Positions 11,304 to 40,158 of a DNA stretch of 64,000 nucleotides are shown in pieces (position 1 is the first letter of the stretch; the number at the start of each line of letters is the position of its first letter). The notes beneath the pieces are model-generated. The model worked only from the letters and a program-made list of their open reading frames with translations, was not told where the DNA came from and did not search any database. A program made the position numbers and the translations under genes. The DNA is from Oceanispirochaeta crateris (GTDB taxonomy: Bacteria; Spirochaetota; Spirochaetia; DSM-2461), in NCBI RefSeq assembly GCF_008329965.1, contig NZ_CP036150.1, positions 3,452,439-3,516,438 on the forward strand, given 5' to 3'.

Positions 11304-13168
11304 GGTTGATCAGTAGGGTCCTAAACAAAATTGAATTTAGGGTGGCTTCTCTTGTTTTTCTCATCCTGGCCTTCGTTCCCGTTTTGGAGATTTTAACCAG
11401 GCTGTTTTTCAATAATGGTATAAAGGGTGCGGAATCCTATGTGAGTCATGCTGTCATCTGGGTGGCATTTCTGGCTGGAATGATTGCCTCTAAAGAAAAA
11501 GCACACCTTTCTTTGACCTCCGGCAGGGATCTTTTTAAGGGTTCTCTTGCTGTTTTTTCAACTTCTTTGAGTCGTATCCTCTCCGGAGGAATCTGTTTTG
11601 GGCTGACCTTCAGCGCCCTCTCTTTCATACTGATTGGGTTTGATCCAACTCAGATGGTAGGTCTCATTCCCATCAGGTTTGTCGCTCTGATAATACCCCT
11701 TGGATTTATGGTGATGGGACTGCGATTTTTTTACATTGATGAAAAAAAGATGGTAACAACTCCTATCATCCTAATCACCATCCTGCTGGGACTCTTTTTG
11801 GGAATCCCCTCGATGACGAATATGCTGTATTCTCTGCTCCCTGATCCGCCCCTTTTCATCGATTCTTTGAGCATGCTTTATTATGATTTTTTTCACTATG
11901 CAGCCTATCCGATGATTTTTTTATTGCTCCTTAGCACAATAAGCGGAACTCCTATTTTTATTCTTCTGGGAGGATTGGCCTTCTTTCTCTTTTCAAGGGA
12001 TTGGGGGTCTTTGGAGATAATTCCCAATGAGGCATACAACCTCCTCACAAGTTCTTCAGTTCCGGCTATACCCCTTTTTACCCTCACAGGATTTATCCTC
12101 TCAGAAAGTAAGGCTGGAGAAAGGCTTGTCAGACTGTTTAAGAGTCTTTTTGGCGGTCTTCCCGGAGGAATGGCTGTTATGGCCGTTGTTGTTTCTGCTT
12201 TTTTTACAACCTTCACCGGGGCTTCTGGTGTTACGATTCTTGCCATGGGTGGTCTACTGTCCTATATGCTTCATGAATCGGGTGACTACAAAGAGGGGTT
12301 TATTAAGGGATTACTCACCTCTTCGGGCAGTATAGGACTCCTCTTTCCCCCCAGTTTACCCATTATCATGTATGCCGTTATGGCTCAGATTTCTGTTAAG
12401 GATATGTTTTTAGGTGGCTTGATTCCGGGACTGATCCTCGTTCTTTCACTGGCTACAATGGGAATCGTGGCTTCATTCCATAAGAAGAGGAATTCCAGTT
12501 TCAACGGATCGGAAATTCTGCCGGCCTTGAAGGATGCCACGGGAGAAATCTTCCTCCCGGTTCTGATCCTCTCGGGATACTTCGGTGGTTTCTTTACCCT
12601 TGTAGAAACCGGTGCCGTGTCGGTGGTGTACTCTTTGCTTTTGGAAGGGTTGATTCATAGAGATATTAAAAGATCGGATCTGTCTAGGATCATGCAGAAG
12701 AGTCTACCCATTATAGGGGGTATCTTGATGATCCTGGCCGTTTCGAAGGGTTTGAGTTATTATCTCATCGATGCCGAGGTTCCTCAGGCTCTGACCAGCT
12801 TTGTTCGAAACAGCATCAGTTCAAAGCTTGTTTTCCTCATCATCCTGAACATCATCCTCCTTCTTACAGGCTGTCTGATGGATATTTATTCGGCTATTCT
12901 GGTTGTGGGGCCTCTGGTTATACCCATGGGTGAGCTTTTTGGAATTCATCCGGTACAGCTGGGAATCATATTTTTGGCGAATCTTCAACTGGGATATCTG
13001 ACTCCTCCGGTGGGAATGAACCTCTTTCTGGCCTCTTATCGGTTTGAAACACCATTAGTGGAGATCTATAAAAAGGTCTTTCCTTTTCTGATGGTATTAC
13101 TTGTCATGGTACTACTGATCACCTATGTTCCCTGGTTCTCTCTCGCATTTCTTGGAATTCAGGGTTGA
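11300..13168 (+). CDS. TRAP transporter fused DctQ-DctM membrane subunit
   Basis: A 622-residue integral membrane protein. The first ~165 residues form the small Q-type subunit (four TM helices). The rest is the large M-type transport subunit with repeated long hydrophobic segments and family motifs such as FTGASGVTILAMGG, SSGSIGLLFPPSLPIIMY and PPVGMNLFLASYRF. Q/M fusion is known in TRAP systems and occurs in treponemes. It starts with GTG in a GTGA overlap with the binding-protein stop. With the two preceding genes it forms a complete sodium- or proton-coupled uptake system associated with a TPR lipoprotein. Confidence 0.92.
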   Translation: MRLISRVLNKIEFRVASLVFLILAFVPVLEILTRLFFNNGIKGAESYVSHAVIWVAFLAGMIASKEKAHLSLTSGRDLFKGSLAVFSTSLSRILSGGICFGLTFSALSFILIGFDPTQMVGLIPIRFVALIIPLGFMVMGLRFFYIDEKKMVTTPIILITILLGLFLGIPSMTNMLYSLLPDPPLFIDSLSMLYYDFFHYAAYPMIFLLLLSTISGTPIFILLGGLAFFLFSRDWGSLEIIPNEAYNLLTSSSVPAIPLFTLTGFILSESKAGERLVRLFKSLFGGLPGGMAVMAVVVSAFFTTFTGASGVTILAMGGLLSYMLHESGDYKEGFIKGLLTSSGSIGLLFPPSLPIIMYAVMAQISVKDMFLGGLIPGLILVLSLATMGIVASFHKKRNSSFNGSEILPALKDATGEIFLPVLILSGYFGGFFTLVETGAVSVVYSLLLEGLIHRDIKRSDLSRIMQKSLPIIGGILMILAVSKGLSYYLIDAEVPQALTSFVRNSISSKLVFLIILNIILLLTGCLMDIYSAILVVGPLVIPMGELFGIHPVQLGIIFLANLQLGYLTPPVGMNLFLASYRFETPLVEIYKKVFPFLMVLLVMVLLITYVPWFSLAFLGIQG

Positions 13169-32846: not shown

Positions 32847-33263
32847 CTACTCAACATCCATGTATTTATCAAGAATCGTTTGAATGGTCTGGTTTCTAAG
32901 CTGATCTCTGATCATTTCTTCTGTATCGCTCCAGAAGGCGGAAATGGCACAGTCGGCAGAACGGCCGCAGGTGCCTTCGGGAGTGGTGCAGGGTGCTAGT
33001 TCTACCCCTTCTTCCACAGCTTCCAAGACATCCAGTACTGTTATTTCATTTAATTCCCGTGCAATTCTAAAACCCCCAGAAGCACCTCTTACTGATTCGG
33101 CAATCCCGGCTTTCTTCAATTTGGTAAAAATCTGTTCCAGAAATATGGGAGATAATTCTTCACTGTTGGAAATGGATTTGATGGATATCGGTTTATTTCC
33201 TGCATTGAGTGCCATGTTTATTATTGCCCTGATGGCATAACGGCCTTTTGTTGTAATTCGCAT
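32847..33263 (-). CDS. Rrf2-family transcriptional regulator with Cys cluster
   Basis: A 138-residue winged-helix repressor of the Rrf2/IscR family: MRITTKGRYAIRAIINMA at the start, recognition-helix region LSPIFLEQIFTKLKKAGI, and wing RGASGGFRIAR. Three cysteines sit in CTTPEGTCGRSADC (Cx6Cx5C), the place and near-spacing of the [2Fe-2S] ligands of IscR, so redox or Fe-S sensing is probable. No isc or suf genes are adjacent. It is divergent from the URO-D/thioredoxin gene, which makes that operon a possible target. The start has no clear ribosome binding site. Confidence 0.9.
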   Translation of the reverse strand: MRITTKGRYAIRAIINMALNAGNKPISIKSISNSEELSPIFLEQIFTKLKKAGIAESVRGASGGFRIARELNEITVLDVLEAVEEGVELAPCTTPEGTCGRSADCAISAFWSDTEEMIRDQLRNQTIQTILDKYMDVE

Positions 33264-33440: not shown

Positions 33441-34790
33441 ATGAATGGAAAAGACTTAATAATAAATACCTTTAAGGGGGAGCCTGTCGAAAGGGCTCCC
33501 TGGGTTCCCTATACAGGGGTCCAGATAGCCAGACTCAAGGGATACGATGCCCAGGAGATCCTCATGGATGGGGATAAGCTTCTTGAATGTCTGCTTGAAT
33601 CCAATAAGCAGTACTCCCCCGACGGTCAACCCGTGGTATTTGATCTGCAGATTGAAGCAGAAATACTCGGCTGCGAACTTCTCTGGGCGAAAGATTCTCC
33701 CCCTACGGTCAAGAGTCATCCTCTGGCTGATACTAAGGAAATTCCCCTTAAAATTCCTAGTAGAACGGAAGGCAGACTTCCCATGGTCTTGGATGTTATG
33801 AAAAGAATGAAAGCAGAAGTGGGGAATACCACTGCTCTGTACGGTCTTGTTTGTGGCCCCTTCACATTGGCATCCCACTTGAGAAGCACCAATATTTTTA
33901 TGGATATGTATGATGATGAAGAATATGTAAAGAAGTTGATATCCTATGCAACGGATGTGGCAATCGCAGTTACCGATCTCTACATAGAATCCGGAATGGA
34001 TATTATCGGTTCAGTAGATCCCCTTGTATCACAAATCTCGCCAGAAATGTTTACCCAGTTTATGGCTTCCGATTACAAGAGATTTTTTGATCATGTTCGG
34101 TCCAAGGGTGCCTTCAGTTCCTTTTTTGTTTGTGGTGATGCAACTAAAAATCTTGAAGCTATGGCTCTTACAGGTCCGGACTGCCTCTCTATTGATGAGA
34201 ATATTGACATAGTAGAGGCCAAAAAAATCACCGATGCCCATCATATTCTCATCTCAGGTAATTTACAGCTCACAGTTGTCATGCTCCTTGGAAATCAGAA
34301 AGACTGTCAGAAAGCAGCCCTCGATCTTATGGACAAGATGGGCACCAAGGGGTTTATTCTGGCTCCCGGCTGTGATATGCCCTATGGGGTTCCTGTTGAA
34401 AACATAGTGGGGGTCGGCCAGGCCGTACAAAATCCGGAAGCCACCAGATCCTTTCTTTCCAGCTATGTGAAGGAAGTCGTGGACATTGATGTGGACATGC
34501 CCGATTATGAAAATCTGGATTATGTTCTTATTGAGGTTTTAACCATAGATTCTGCCACCTGCGCCGCTTGCGGATATATGAAGGCGGCAGCTGACGATAT
34601 GATCGGGATCTTTGGAGATGCAAAAGTTAAGGTCATAGAGCGAAAAATCCTGGAACCTGAGAATATAGCCAGGCTGGGACTACTGGGGGTTGCCAACCTT
34701 CCTTCCATCGCCGTGAATGGAAAGGTCACCCATGTGTCTCTCATTCCCAGCCGTGCTGAACTTGAAGAAGAGATCCGTAGTTTGCTCTGA
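33441..34790 (+). CDS. URO-D/MtaA-like corrinoid methyltransferase domain fused to a thioredoxin-like domain
   Basis: A 449-residue protein. Residues 1-345 belong to the uroporphyrinogen decarboxylase superfamily (PVERAPWVPYTGVQIARLKG, then YGLVCGPFTLASHLRSTN). C231 (FFVCGD) and C311 (APGCDMP) sit where corrinoid methyltransferases such as MtaA hold two zinc-binding Cys, but the usual His two residues before the first Cys is Phe here. HemE arginines are not evident, so a heme decarboxylase is unlikely. Residues ~365-449 look like a small thioredoxin-type fold with C374-A-A-C377 and the cis-Pro region LPSIAVNGKV. AGGAGG precedes the ATG. A CobW-like GTPase follows 99 bp later. The substrate is unknown. 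Confidence 0.82.
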   Translation: MNGKDLIINTFKGEPVERAPWVPYTGVQIARLKGYDAQEILMDGDKLLECLLESNKQYSPDGQPVVFDLQIEAEILGCELLWAKDSPPTVKSHPLADTKEIPLKIPSRTEGRLPMVLDVMKRMKAEVGNTTALYGLVCGPFTLASHLRSTNIFMDMYDDEEYVKKLISYATDVAIAVTDLYIESGMDIIGSVDPLVSQISPEMFTQFMASDYKRFFDHVRSKGAFSSFFVCGDATKNLEAMALTGPDCLSIDENIDIVEAKKITDAHHILISGNLQLTVVMLLGNQKDCQKAALDLMDKMGTKGFILAPGCDMPYGVPVENIVGVGQAVQNPEATRSFLSSYVKEVVDIDVDMPDYENLDYVLIEVLTIDSATCAACGYMKAAADDMIGIFGDAKVKVIERKILEPENIARLGLLGVANLPSIAVNGKVTHVSLIPSRAELEEEIRSLL

Positions 34791-34889
34791 CTGGGGTCAT
34801 ACTGAAGAGGGCATTCAAGGCTGGTATTGGATGTCCCGTCGTGAATCACCGGGGGGCCTTTGGAACCCCGGTTGTCAAAGGAGGCTTAT

Positions 34890-35849
34890 ATGGGCAAAAA
34901 AATTGATATTATCCTGTTGGCTGGTTTCCTGGGTTCCGGGAAAACAACGGTTCTCAATGAACTCATCCGGTATTTCCATGGTAGGAAATTAGGGATCTTG
35001 GTAAACGACTTTGGGGAAGTACCAGTGGATGGGGCTTTGCTTTTGAATGAGAATCCAGAACTTTTGGAGGAGGGACACAAGATCTATGAAATTGGTAATG
35101 GATCTATTTTCTGTTCCTGCCTCAAGGCCCCCTTTGTTTATGGGCTGAAGTATTTTGAAGAGGAAAAACCCGATTTGCTTTTTATTGAAGCCTCCGGATT
35201 ATCTGATCCTTCCAGTATGAATAAAATTCTTTCTGACCATCAGCTGGCATCACAGTTCTCTGTCAAGCATGTGGTCACATTGATTGATCCTATCCGCTAC
35301 AAGGCTCTTGTTACAGTCCTGGATGTCATTGGGAGACAAATTTCAACGGCCGATCAAATTTTAATCAATAAGACAGATCTTATTCCAGATAAGGAGCTGA
35401 ATGAGCTGATCAAGGATTTGAAAACACGTTCCTCGGCTCCACTTCAGACAGGAGTATTTGGAGCGTTTGACTACTCTTTCATTGATTTGGAGGTCCCCCG
35501 AACTCTGCATGGTGAATTGGAAAGCTGTAATACCCCCGAATCCAGACCTGCTAGTCTTTTCCTGGAAGGAAAAATTGAAAGTGAACAGGTTCTAAAGGAT
35601 TTTATGAGCCGTATAGAGGGTAGTATTTATAGGGTGAAAGGTTTTATAGATATTGAGGGTAGGAGCTATTATGTTTCTGATAATACCGTCGGCTACAGTC
35701 TGACAGAGGTTGTAAAACCAGGAATGAAACCGGGACTTACGGTTCTCTGTCCCGTGAAGCATAAGGAAAATATCCTTCAGCTCTGGAATGAAATCCGGAG
35801 AATAGAGATCAGACCGAAAGGCTTTTCTCTTTCTTCTCCGGGATTGTGA
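34890..35849 (+). CDS. CobW/G3E-family GTPase (putative metallochaperone)
   Basis: A 319-residue G3E P-loop GTPase. I chose ATG 34890 (GGAGG six bases upstream). Walker A is GFLGSGKT at 12-19, Walker B-like LLFIEASGLSDP, and the guanine-specificity motif is NKTD near 160. The CobW metal motif is normally CxCC; here it is C75-S-C77-L, lacking the third Cys. A C-terminal CobW-C-like domain follows (~220-319). G3E proteins insert or supply Zn, Co or Ni to enzymes. The neighbouring Cys-containing methyltransferase-like protein is its likely client, but this is inferred. Confidence 0.88.
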   Translation: MGKKIDIILLAGFLGSGKTTVLNELIRYFHGRKLGILVNDFGEVPVDGALLLNENPELLEEGHKIYEIGNGSIFCSCLKAPFVYGLKYFEEEKPDLLFIEASGLSDPSSMNKILSDHQLASQFSVKHVVTLIDPIRYKALVTVLDVIGRQISTADQILINKTDLIPDKELNELIKDLKTRSSAPLQTGVFGAFDYSFIDLEVPRTLHGELESCNTPESRPASLFLEGKIESEQVLKDFMSRIEGSIYRVKGFIDIEGRSYYVSDNTVGYSLTEVVKPGMKPGLTVLCPVKHKENILQLWNEIRRIEIRPKGFSLSSPGL

Positions 35850-36500: not shown

Positions 36501-36863
36501 ATGAATAACAGTGACGATATTGAAGATCCCCAGGTGAGCCATGATGCCGCCCGGATTGAGCGGGTGAAAGAGTTGCTCGTGACTCAGGATGAGCTTGATC
36601 ATCTGGTTCAGACCTTTAAAATATTTGGTGATCCCTCCCGACTCAAAATTATAAATGCCCTGATAGAAGATGAACTCTGTGTTCATGAAATTGCCGAACT
36701 GATGGGAATGAGCCAGCCCGCAGTGTCTCATCAACTCAGGCAGCTCAAGCAGGCTCATGTGGTCAATTCCAGAAGGGCCGGGAAGCACATATTCTATTCT
36801 CTCCTGGATGAACATGTCATCCAAATTTTTAGAATCTGTCAGAAACATCTGAGTGAGGGTTGA
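36501..36863 (+). CDS. ArsR/SmtB-family metal-responsive repressor (zinc-type)
   Basis: A 120-residue winged-helix regulator (FGDPSRLKIINAL, recognition helix MSQPAVSHQLRQLKQAHVV, wing RAGKHIFYSL). The last helix carries D103, H105, H116 and E119. This offset pattern (0, 2, 13, 16) equals the alpha-5 zinc site of SmtB and CzrA, so zinc or a similar metal probably relieves repression. A Cys in ELCVHEI sits near the alpha-3 position. The gene for a Zn/Cd-type P-ATPase begins 1.1 kb downstream, beyond an aldo/keto reductase on the other strand, and is the probable target. Confidence 0.9.
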   Translation: MNNSDDIEDPQVSHDAARIERVKELLVTQDELDHLVQTFKIFGDPSRLKIINALIEDELCVHEIAELMGMSQPAVSHQLRQLKQAHVVNSRRAGKHIFYSLLDEHVIQIFRICQKHLSEG

Positions 36864-37961: not shown

Positions 37962-38001
37962 AAGCATACGCAGATATGTATTGTTTTTTTGTGAGGTAAA
38001 T

Positions 38002-40158
38002 ATGTCTGTAAAGATTGAATATACTTTGTCCGGTCTCTGCTGTTCACAATGTGCTGCGGTTATTGAGAGAAAAGTAAAAGAACTGGACTGGGTGAAGAAT
38101 GCCCGGGTGAATATGGCATCTCAGATTTTATACCTGGATAGCTCAGCTTCCATAGGTGAACGACAGCTTGAATTACAGTCTTTGGTGGACTCTATTGAGG
38201 ATGGGATTATACTTGAAGAACGCGGAGGTTCTGATTCAAAATCGACCGATTTGAAGCCGGGTTCCGCTCTAAAGAAGAAGATCCCCGAGCTATTGGGAGC
38301 GGCCTTATTTTTTGTTTTGACCTTTCTCAGAGGGAATGAGACCTTGCCCCTTGTCTACAGAATCGTCCTGTATAGTACTTCTTATCTTTTGATTGGTCAT
38401 AGTGTTTTACTAAGCGGTCTGAAAAATATGAAGAGAGGCCGATTTCTGGACGAAAATTTTCTCATGATTTTGGCTACATCCGGGGCCTTTGCCCTTGGCG
38501 AGTTTCCGGAGGCTGTGGCTGTTATGCTTTTTTACCAGATTGGTGAATTCTTTCAAGATATGGCTGTGGACAAATCCCGAAGGTCCATTCGGAATCTGAT
38601 GGATTCCAAACCGGGTATGGTTTCGGTCCTTCGTGGAACAGAGTTGGTTGAGACTCCGCCGGATCAGGTGGAGCCGGGGACACTTTACCGCCTGAGGGCT
38701 GGAGACCGAATCCCTTTAGATGGTGTTGTTATGAAGGGGACGGGGTCTGTCGATACCTCTGCTCTTACAGGGGAATCCTATCCCCGGCGAGTCCATGAAG
38801 GAAGAACAGTTCTCAGCGGTTATGTGAATAAAGACAGCCTTTTGGAGATTCGTTCCACTAAGAGTCTCTCTGAGTCTTCCTATGCCAGAATTATTGCCAT
38901 GGTCGAAGAGTCCAGCAGCCGCAAGGCACAGTCGGAGCAGTTCATCACACGGTTTGCCCGATTCTATACTCCTATTGTTGTTGGAATGGCCGTTCTTCTA
39001 GCGTTCATTCCTCCTCTTGTTCTAGAGGGCGCCTCTTTTGGGGATTGGCTCTACAGAGCTCTTGTATTCCTGGTTGTTTCCTGTCCCTGTGCCTTGGTTA
39101 TCTCCATACCGCTGGGATTCTTTGCCGGAATCGGACGGGCTTCCAAGGAAGGTATCCTTGTGAAAGGGGGGAATTATCTGGAGGCATTGAACAGAATCGA
39201 TACGGTCTTCTTAGACAAGACGGGTACGCTGACAAAAGGTGTCTTTTCCTTGACGTCCATCCTACCTGCTCCGGGTATCAAAGAAGCCGAACTTTTTAGA
39301 CTGGCGTCATTGGCTGAGTCTGCTTCTCATCATCCCATCGCTATTTCCATTCAAAATGCCTGGACGGAACAGGGCGGGGCGAACTTGGCTCCCGATTCAG
39401 TAGAAGAAATTGCGGGTCATGGGCTCAAGGCCCGCTACCAGGGGCAGACTATCCTTGTGGGGAAGAGAGACTGGCTGTTGAGCCAGGGCATTGAGGTTGA
39501 GGGTCTTTCTTCCTCGGAAGGAACTACTGTTTATGTTGCAATGAATGGGGTTTATCAGGGAGCTCTCAATCTTTCTGATTCTATACGCCCGGATGCTGAG
39601 AAGATGGTGAAGGAGCTTCGGAAAATTGGGATCAAATCTATCATAATGCTCACAGGAGACGCAAATCCTACAGCTGAATTCGTGTCCAACACTTTGGGTC
39701 TGGATGGTTATGAGTCTGGTTTATTGCCCCATCAAAAGGTTGAGGCCGTAGAAAGAGCCATTGCCGCTGGACAGCAAACCGCTTTTTTGGGTGACGGAAT
39801 AAATGACGCTCCCGTATTGGCGAGAGCCGGTGTCGGGATTGCTATGGGGGCTCTTGGATCAGATGCGGCCATTGAAGCCGCAGATGTTGTTCTCATGGCT
39901 GATGAGCCCTTTCGTCTGGTGAACGCCCTCAGAATTGCCCGAAAAACGAGGCAGATCGTTTTACAGAACATCATCATGGCCCTGGGGATAAAGGCAGTAA
40001 TCCTCATACTGGCGGCCATGGGATATGCCGGTATGGGCTTAGCTATTTTTGGAGATGTGGGAGTGGCTCTCTTGGCAATCCTCAATGTTCTGAGGATTAT
40101 GTCAGGTCGTGAACCCACTTCCCGGAAAGAACCCGATACAAGCCTATCATATACTTGA
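38002..40158 (+). CDS. P1B-type heavy-metal ATPase (Zn/Cd/Pb exporter type)
   Basis: A 718-residue efflux ATPase. I chose ATG 38002 (GAGGT six bases upstream) over the TTG at 37981. An N-terminal HMA domain carries CCSQC (C13, C14, C17). The A-domain has TGES, the transmembrane metal site is C361-P-C363 in SCPCAL, the phosphorylated D405 is in DKTGTLTKG, the HP locus is SASHHPIA, and the hinge is MLTGDANP and GDGINDAPVL. The MALGIK stretch in the last TM region fits the Zn/Cd subgroup. The 3' end overlaps the convergent MATE gene by 62 bp. Confidence 0.92.
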   Translation: MSVKIEYTLSGLCCSQCAAVIERKVKELDWVKNARVNMASQILYLDSSASIGERQLELQSLVDSIEDGIILEERGGSDSKSTDLKPGSALKKKIPELLGAALFFVLTFLRGNETLPLVYRIVLYSTSYLLIGHSVLLSGLKNMKRGRFLDENFLMILATSGAFALGEFPEAVAVMLFYQIGEFFQDMAVDKSRRSIRNLMDSKPGMVSVLRGTELVETPPDQVEPGTLYRLRAGDRIPLDGVVMKGTGSVDTSALTGESYPRRVHEGRTVLSGYVNKDSLLEIRSTKSLSESSYARIIAMVEESSSRKAQSEQFITRFARFYTPIVVGMAVLLAFIPPLVLEGASFGDWLYRALVFLVVSCPCALVISIPLGFFAGIGRASKEGILVKGGNYLEALNRIDTVFLDKTGTLTKGVFSLTSILPAPGIKEAELFRLASLAESASHHPIAISIQNAWTEQGGANLAPDSVEEIAGHGLKARYQGQTILVGKRDWLLSQGIEVEGLSSSEGTTVYVAMNGVYQGALNLSDSIRPDAEKMVKELRKIGIKSIIMLTGDANPTAEFVSNTLGLDGYESGLLPHQKVEAVERAIAAGQQTAFLGDGINDAPVLARAGVGIAMGALGSDAAIEAADVVLMADEPFRLVNALRIARKTRQIVLQNIIMALGIKAVILILAAMGYAGMGLAIFGDVGVALLAILNVLRIMSGREPTSRKEPDTSLSYT

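Follow-up and report, generated by a model that had tools for sequence, protein, structure and literature searches.

In Oceanispirochaeta crateris, a probable methyltransferase gene whose product ends in a thioredoxin-like domain lies next to a gene for a CobW-type GTPase. The pair raises the question of which reaction such an enzyme would carry out, and with which metal. It lies in the window studied here, a stretch of 64,000 nucleotides. The first-pass annotation described a URO-D/corrinoid-type methyltransferase fused to a CAAC thioredoxin fold, with its own CobW partner. The open reading frame, the URO-D match and the fold of the tail all bear this out. The fusion protein is called URO-Trx here, and the features of the locus are collected in Table 1.

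Table 1. Features of the URO-Trx locus (positions within the window)
Feature	Position	Strand	Basis
Rrf2/IscR-like regulator gene, divergent	32847..33263	-	Pfam Rrf2 1.4e-36; same place in L016-L018
URO-Trx gene: URO-D/MtaA-type methyltransferase with C-terminal thioredoxin domain	33441..34790	+	449-aa open reading frame
F229-V230-C231 codons, HxC metal motif changed to FxC	34125..34133	+	Alignment to 4ay7; invariant in 77/77
C311 codon, second conserved metal-site Cys	34371..34373	+	Alignment to 4ay7; invariant in 77/77
Thioredoxin-fold domain, residues 361-449	34521..34787	+	AF2 secondary structure, PDB profile matches, Pfam Thioredoxin_3
CAAC motif, residues 374-377	34560-34571	+	Sequence
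COG0523/CobW-type G3E GTPase gene, probable start ATG 34890	34890..35849	+	319 aa; Pfam cobW 7.9e-38
Variant metal motif FCSC (from GSIFCSC), replacing CxCC	35109..35120	+	F and both Cys invariant in 37 aligned type A partners

URO-Trx is a member of the UroD/MtaA fold superfamily PF01208. The URO-D domain spans residues 4-329 (Pfam, 8.3e-61; 206 bits against a gathering score of 23.9). The AlphaFold (AF2) model has a mean pLDDT of 92, and its top match among solved structures in Foldseek is Methanosarcina mazei MtaA, 4ay7 (TM 0.90 by target, rmsd 1.9, 24% identity in the structural alignment). The protein falls below the curated cut-off of the MtaA/CmuA family TIGR01463 (164.9 bits against 235.4). 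In a small UroD tree the thioredoxin-fused proteins form one clade with support of 1.0; the deep nodes of this tree lack resolution.

A genome scan found at least 248 relatives of URO-Trx in one genome collection. The best 80 of these were kept and 77 full-length sequences were analysed; as these are the closest of the 248, distant members may differ. The 77 include the O. crateris copy and three copies fetched separately, and one genome is represented twice. Hosts include Spirochaetes, Clostridia, Anaerolineae, Calditrichia and others. Gene calls in the surrounding loci followed a simple ORF rule, and the names given to clusters of neighbours come from scans of a few representatives. An even sample of 296 genomes of the Spirochaetes phylum, four of which carry the fusion, served as background.

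The metal site of the barrel is altered in the same way in every orthologue. C231 and C311 align with the cysteines of the HxC...C motif of 4ay7, and F229 sits at the position of the MtaA histidine, two residues ahead of the first cysteine. All 77 full-length sequences agree at F229, V230, C231, C311, C374, C377, Pro421, Glu253, Cys78 and His146. The His-x-Cys...Cys zinc triad of MtaA and CmuA is thus incomplete throughout the set: both cysteines are present and Phe replaces His. The other URO-D proteins examined, found near orthologue loci or elsewhere in the O. crateris genome, mostly keep the histidine. The altered site noticed in the single O. crateris sequence is a constant property of these orthologues. 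Since the His ligand is gone in all of them, the zinc site of MtaA cannot be transferred directly to URO-Trx.

The tail has the features of a thioredoxin: a CxxC at the start of a helix, a conserved proline (Pro421) at the usual cis-Pro position, and thioredoxin topology in the AF2 model, where pLDDT across the tail is about 80-94. A profile built from 18 tails matches the solved archaeal thioredoxins 1nho (9e-11) and 1fo5 (5e-9), and Pfam Thioredoxin_3 is found in all 18 tails scanned; the O. crateris tail taken alone scores 22.7 bits, just below the cut-off of 24.8. The small archaeal proteins (MJ0307 type) share the fold and the CxxC position with the tail. However, they are free-standing, whereas the tail is fused to a methyltransferase. 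It is present in all 77 sequences. A tail of another fold would have counted against the original reading, and the model and profile matches speak for a thioredoxin-like one.

The GTPase gene follows URO-Trx after a gap of 99 bases. Its ATG start, preceded by AAAGGAGG, is preferred to TTG 34860. Folding of the segment between the two genes is no better than expected (z -1.75), and a hairpin there was rejected. The protein has the P-loop GFLGSGKTT and a G3E GTPase domain. Its top Foldseek matches are YjiA structures 1nij and 4ixm (E 1e-15), with poor full-length superposition (rmsd ~18). Haas (2009) states the CxCC metal motif for all COG0523 members (PMC2770081); the O. crateris partner has GSIFCSC in its place, and the CxC variant seen in the first-pass annotation is real. 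Other spirochaete COG0523 proteins displayed have GC[IV]CC.

The partnership itself is widespread. A same-strand COG0523 gene lies within 7 kb of URO-Trx in 63 of the 77 loci, a count which leaves out two false cluster members, and it is often directly downstream or overlapping. Orthologues that were never beside CobW would have spoken against a dedicated partner; most are beside one. Given this frequency and the invariance of F229, C231, C311, C374 and C377, the fusion and its pairing with CobW are not due to chance. There are two kinds of CobW near URO-Trx. Type A is about 305 aa long and carries G-x-[ILV]-F-C-x-C, as in O. crateris; type B is about 360 aa long and has the canonical CxCC. 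Type A only is found at 43 loci, type B only at 12, and both at eight. Because 12 loci pair with the canonical kind, the link between FCxC and Phe229 is not a strict one. In the spirochaete sample, type A occurs in all four genomes with the fusion and in one of the 292 without it. The four best type A matches in this sample are those of the four fusion genomes, although in one (G144) the gene is on a different contig. The lone strong match outside them comes from an 80%-complete MAG in which the contig ends at the start of the CobW gene.

The window contains no corrinoid protein, RACo, MttB or MtaB. The statement to this effect made from the sequence holds for the window only, and its hint of a function without a corrinoid system is not sustained by the orthologues or by the rest of the genome. 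Near URO-Trx in relatives, a corrinoid protein is found at 25 loci and a RACo/RamA-type reactivator at 26, together with regulators; the representative regulator checked has a PocR sensor and an AraC-type DNA-binding domain. The order RACo, PocR, corrinoid protein, URO-Trx, CobW occurs at four loci (L041, L045, L057, L085). A check of the O. crateris genome for corrinoid proteins, as had been suggested, found a corrinoid protein gene that shares a locus with RACo and PocR/AraC (C1:2120927-2125154), about 1.36 Mb from the URO-Trx/CobW pair. The corrinoid protein, encoded at C1:2124519-2125154, has 72-74% identity with its counterparts immediately 5' of URO-Trx in L064, L086 and L087. The corrinoid protein and Ram/RACo partner expected of an MtaA/CmuA-type enzyme are thus supplied by operons in relatives and by the trio at 2.12 Mb in O. 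crateris. Of the 48 fusion genomes, 42 have RACo, whereas the spirochaete background has it in 68 of 296 (Fisher p ~7e-18, kinship ignored); inside that sample all four fusion genomes have it (p 0.003, kinship ignored).

Partner methyltransferases vary from locus to locus. MtaB accompanies URO-Trx in L036 (1.3e-154), a second URO-D protein in L033, L034, L052 and L053, and MttB-type proteins lie near it in L040, L049 and L055; the MttB-type cluster (cluster 28) was named from its own sequence and from MTTB matches in the same genomes, not by a per-protein scan. As MttB occurs in just 12 of the 48 fusion genomes and is absent from O. crateris, it is ruled out as a universal methyl donor. MtaB is also absent from the O. 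crateris genome, and so is a folate-type acceptor methyltransferase in stand-alone form; the two places that Pterin_bind matches there are MetH and a frame of 300 aa taken as FolP.

Several other genes are found in these surroundings. Ten loci (L040, L049, L051, L058, L077, L081 and others), several of them in gut Clostridia, have a gene for a BioB-like radical SAM protein close to the fusion. A protein of 431-438 aa and unassigned family (cluster 27) is encoded upstream of the corrinoid protein in L070 (8020-9315) and just downstream of it in L037 (8926-10227). Searches of Pfam and the PDB gave no match for it, and a profile comparison with URO-Trx gave none that was convincing. A new methyltransferase on the substrate side is one possibility for this protein. 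O. crateris has another MtaA-like URO-D protein at C1:2276147-2277205 (L099 6147-7205, minus strand), which keeps the histidine, groups with MtaA in the small tree and comes after a sugar-type ABC transporter. It is a possible partner methyltransferase. A further URO-D family gene at C1:2286769-2287584 (L003) is interrupted by two TAG stops and one TAA, and there are two partial URO-D matches at C1:2024825-2025305. The broken gene and the partial matches suggest decay of some URO-D paralogues.

On the other side of URO-Trx, the Rrf2/IscR-like protein is a possible regulator of the pair; its position is conserved in close relatives only. Downstream of CobW are an ArsR/SmtB-type regulator gene (window 36501-36863) and a Zn/Cd-type P-type ATPase gene (37981-40158), with an opposite-strand aldo/keto reductase gene between them. 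Parts of this arrangement are shared by the closest relatives, and it is therefore probably ordinary synteny. A link to arsenic or heavy metals through these genes was rejected, as they are common to close relatives only.

Some of these elements have been described in other systems. Association of CobW with MtaA has been known since 2009: a COG0523 subfamily adjoins mtaA, mtaB, mtaC and ram genes, with Clostridium botulinum among the hosts, and MtaA in methanogens has a COG0523 neighbour, as URO-Trx does (Haas 2009, PMC2770081). The URO-Trx partner resembles COG0523 subfamily 13 of that study in being a G3E GTPase encoded beside corrinoid methyltransferase genes, and differs from the CxCC given there for COG0523 members in its type A motif. 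With MtaA 4ay7, URO-Trx shares the UroD barrel, the two metal-site cysteines and the context of corrinoid protein and RACo/Ram. It differs in having Phe for the His ligand, a thioredoxin tail and bacterial hosts. Bacterial clusters of MtaA-like proteins (type I mlp clusters) with His-Cys-Cys sites and a link to selenium were described by Kountz and Balskus (2023, PMC10418091); the main text of that paper has no CobW, and thioredoxin appears in a cited title only. Our literature search, which covered few subscription journals, turned up no paper on the fusion to thioredoxin, on the replacement of His in all orthologues or on FCxC in the partner GTPase. The original label of uncharacterised metalloenzyme is accurate for substrate and metal only; beyond that it does not stand.

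Given the corrinoid context and the similarity to MtaA, URO-Trx is very likely a corrinoid-dependent methyltransferase, a reading that draws on sequence comparison. The explanation we favour overall, and consider reasonably probable, is an MtaA-type enzyme which depends on a corrinoid protein and works as follows. RACo would reduce the corrinoid protein to Co(I), and the methyl group of a substrate would pass to the corrinoid. The GTPase, which is probably the metal loader of URO-Trx, would insert a metal bound by Cys231 and Cys311, with Glu253 as a candidate third ligand. URO-Trx would then shuttle the methyl group between the corrinoid and a metal-bound thiol or sulfide. The CAAC tail would keep this thiol (or the site cysteines) reduced, or provide the thiol. 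Methyl transfer between methyl-corrinoid and a thiol kept reduced by the tail is thus the preferred reading, in which direction, substrate and metal are inferred. That a thiol is the methyl-exchanging partner is plausible, at a little under an even chance; a role of the tail as reductant or thiol supplier, read from the CAAC motif alone, is a slightly more tentative suggestion. Handover of a thiol or methyl group by this domain, as the first-pass annotation proposed, is likewise plausible. A thiol acceptor is attractive because O. crateris has no stand-alone folate-type acceptor enzyme. Cys ligands have been linked to S or Se substrates (Kountz and Balskus, PMC10418091), and by the same argument the retention of both site cysteines fits a soft S or Se substrate. 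Against this, the URO-Trx operons have no recurrent gene of thiol metabolism; a single homocysteine methyltransferase is found, in L026.

The step at which the enzyme acts is the main point on which alternatives divide. A constant URO-Trx accompanied by varying methyltransferases (MtaB, MttB-type, URO-D) suggests a shared second-step enzyme. However, many loci have no second methyltransferase nearby and MttB is infrequent, and the first step could therefore fall to URO-Trx itself. It would then demethylate a small methylated substrate, found via the PocR sensor, onto the corrinoid protein, and may run both half-reactions like MtsA. Several spirochaete operons consist of RACo, PocR, corrinoid protein, URO-Trx and CobW without any other methyltransferase, the PocR regulator suggests inducible catabolic use, and a title cited as reference 58 in PMC10762971 gives MtsA as a precedent for both half-reactions, with dimethylsulfide and CoM. 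In L080, an MIP gene (11586-12395, by Pfam) separates URO-Trx from CobW, and L088 has a near-identical gene in the corresponding place (11577-12392). MIP proteins (aquaporins/glycerol facilitators) are channels that pass small neutral solutes and would suit such a substrate. Nevertheless, this reading leaves the accompanying methyltransferases at other loci without explanation, and it names no methyl acceptor for a genome without a stand-alone folate-type methyltransferase. We consider it unlikely, but worth keeping in mind.

The remaining alternatives fare much worse. A part in selenium or sulfur salvage would resemble type I mlp clusters, which share with the URO-Trx loci bacterial MtaA homologues, a corrinoid protein and RACE (PMC10418091). 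These clusters have at least Mlp2 and Mlp3, with two or three Mlps in each, retain His-Cys-Cys and are strongly linked to selenium, whereas URO-Trx is usually the only such enzyme at its locus and has lost the His. Moreover, 87% of type I hosts make selenocysteine (PMC10418091), whereas in the fusion set just 14 of the 49 genomes have a SelA match above the cut-off, and O. crateris has none; this rarity rules against selenium salvage, and salvage as a whole is very improbable. Hardly more credible, and if anything slightly less so, is the idea that URO-Trx methylates homocysteine as one module of a split methionine synthase. Some operons do encode small proteins resembling the activation domain of MetH (Met_synt_B12 match in L098), and L026 has its homocysteine S-methyltransferase, but O. 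crateris is already equipped with a complete set of methionine synthase parts, along with a bifunctional homocysteine methyltransferase/MTHFR. These lie at C1:3835479-3840928 (L106), where the homocysteine part of methionine synthase (307 aa) is separate from the remaining 816 aa, and the bifunctional gene adjoins them. Finally, the URO-D fold is shared with uroporphyrinogen decarboxylase, and URO-Trx might be an ordinary HemE or a decayed paralogue. The hemE model gives it 76.6 against a cut-off of 302.95, the metal-site cysteines are invariant across phyla and the operons are corrinoid operons. Score and operon context refute HemE identity, and this alternative has almost nothing left to recommend it.

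A more far-reaching form of the preferred reading, methyl exchange between corrinoid and thiol, is speculative and rather improbable as a whole. URO-Trx would represent a distinct branch of corrinoid methyltransferases with a rebuilt metal site, served by a matching FCxC metallochaperone, and with a metal or coordination other than that of MtaA. The CAAC tail would provide the thiol that exchanges methyl or sulfur, and in bacteria without coenzyme M the enzyme would offer methanol, methylamine or O-methyl substrates a shared second step that runs through a thiol. The bacterial hosts of URO-Trx are not known to contain coenzyme M.

The fusion family occurs in anaerobes from sediments to animal guts and, with so many relatives in a single genome collection, appears to be a common yet unnamed branch of one-carbon metabolism. 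The paired changes in the metal site of the enzyme and in the partner GTPase offer a clean test of which features of a client enzyme COG0523 proteins recognise. Should the methyl group be accepted by a thiol or sulfide, the family could help to explain how methyl groups pass to sulfur in anaerobes, for example in the formation of methanethiol.
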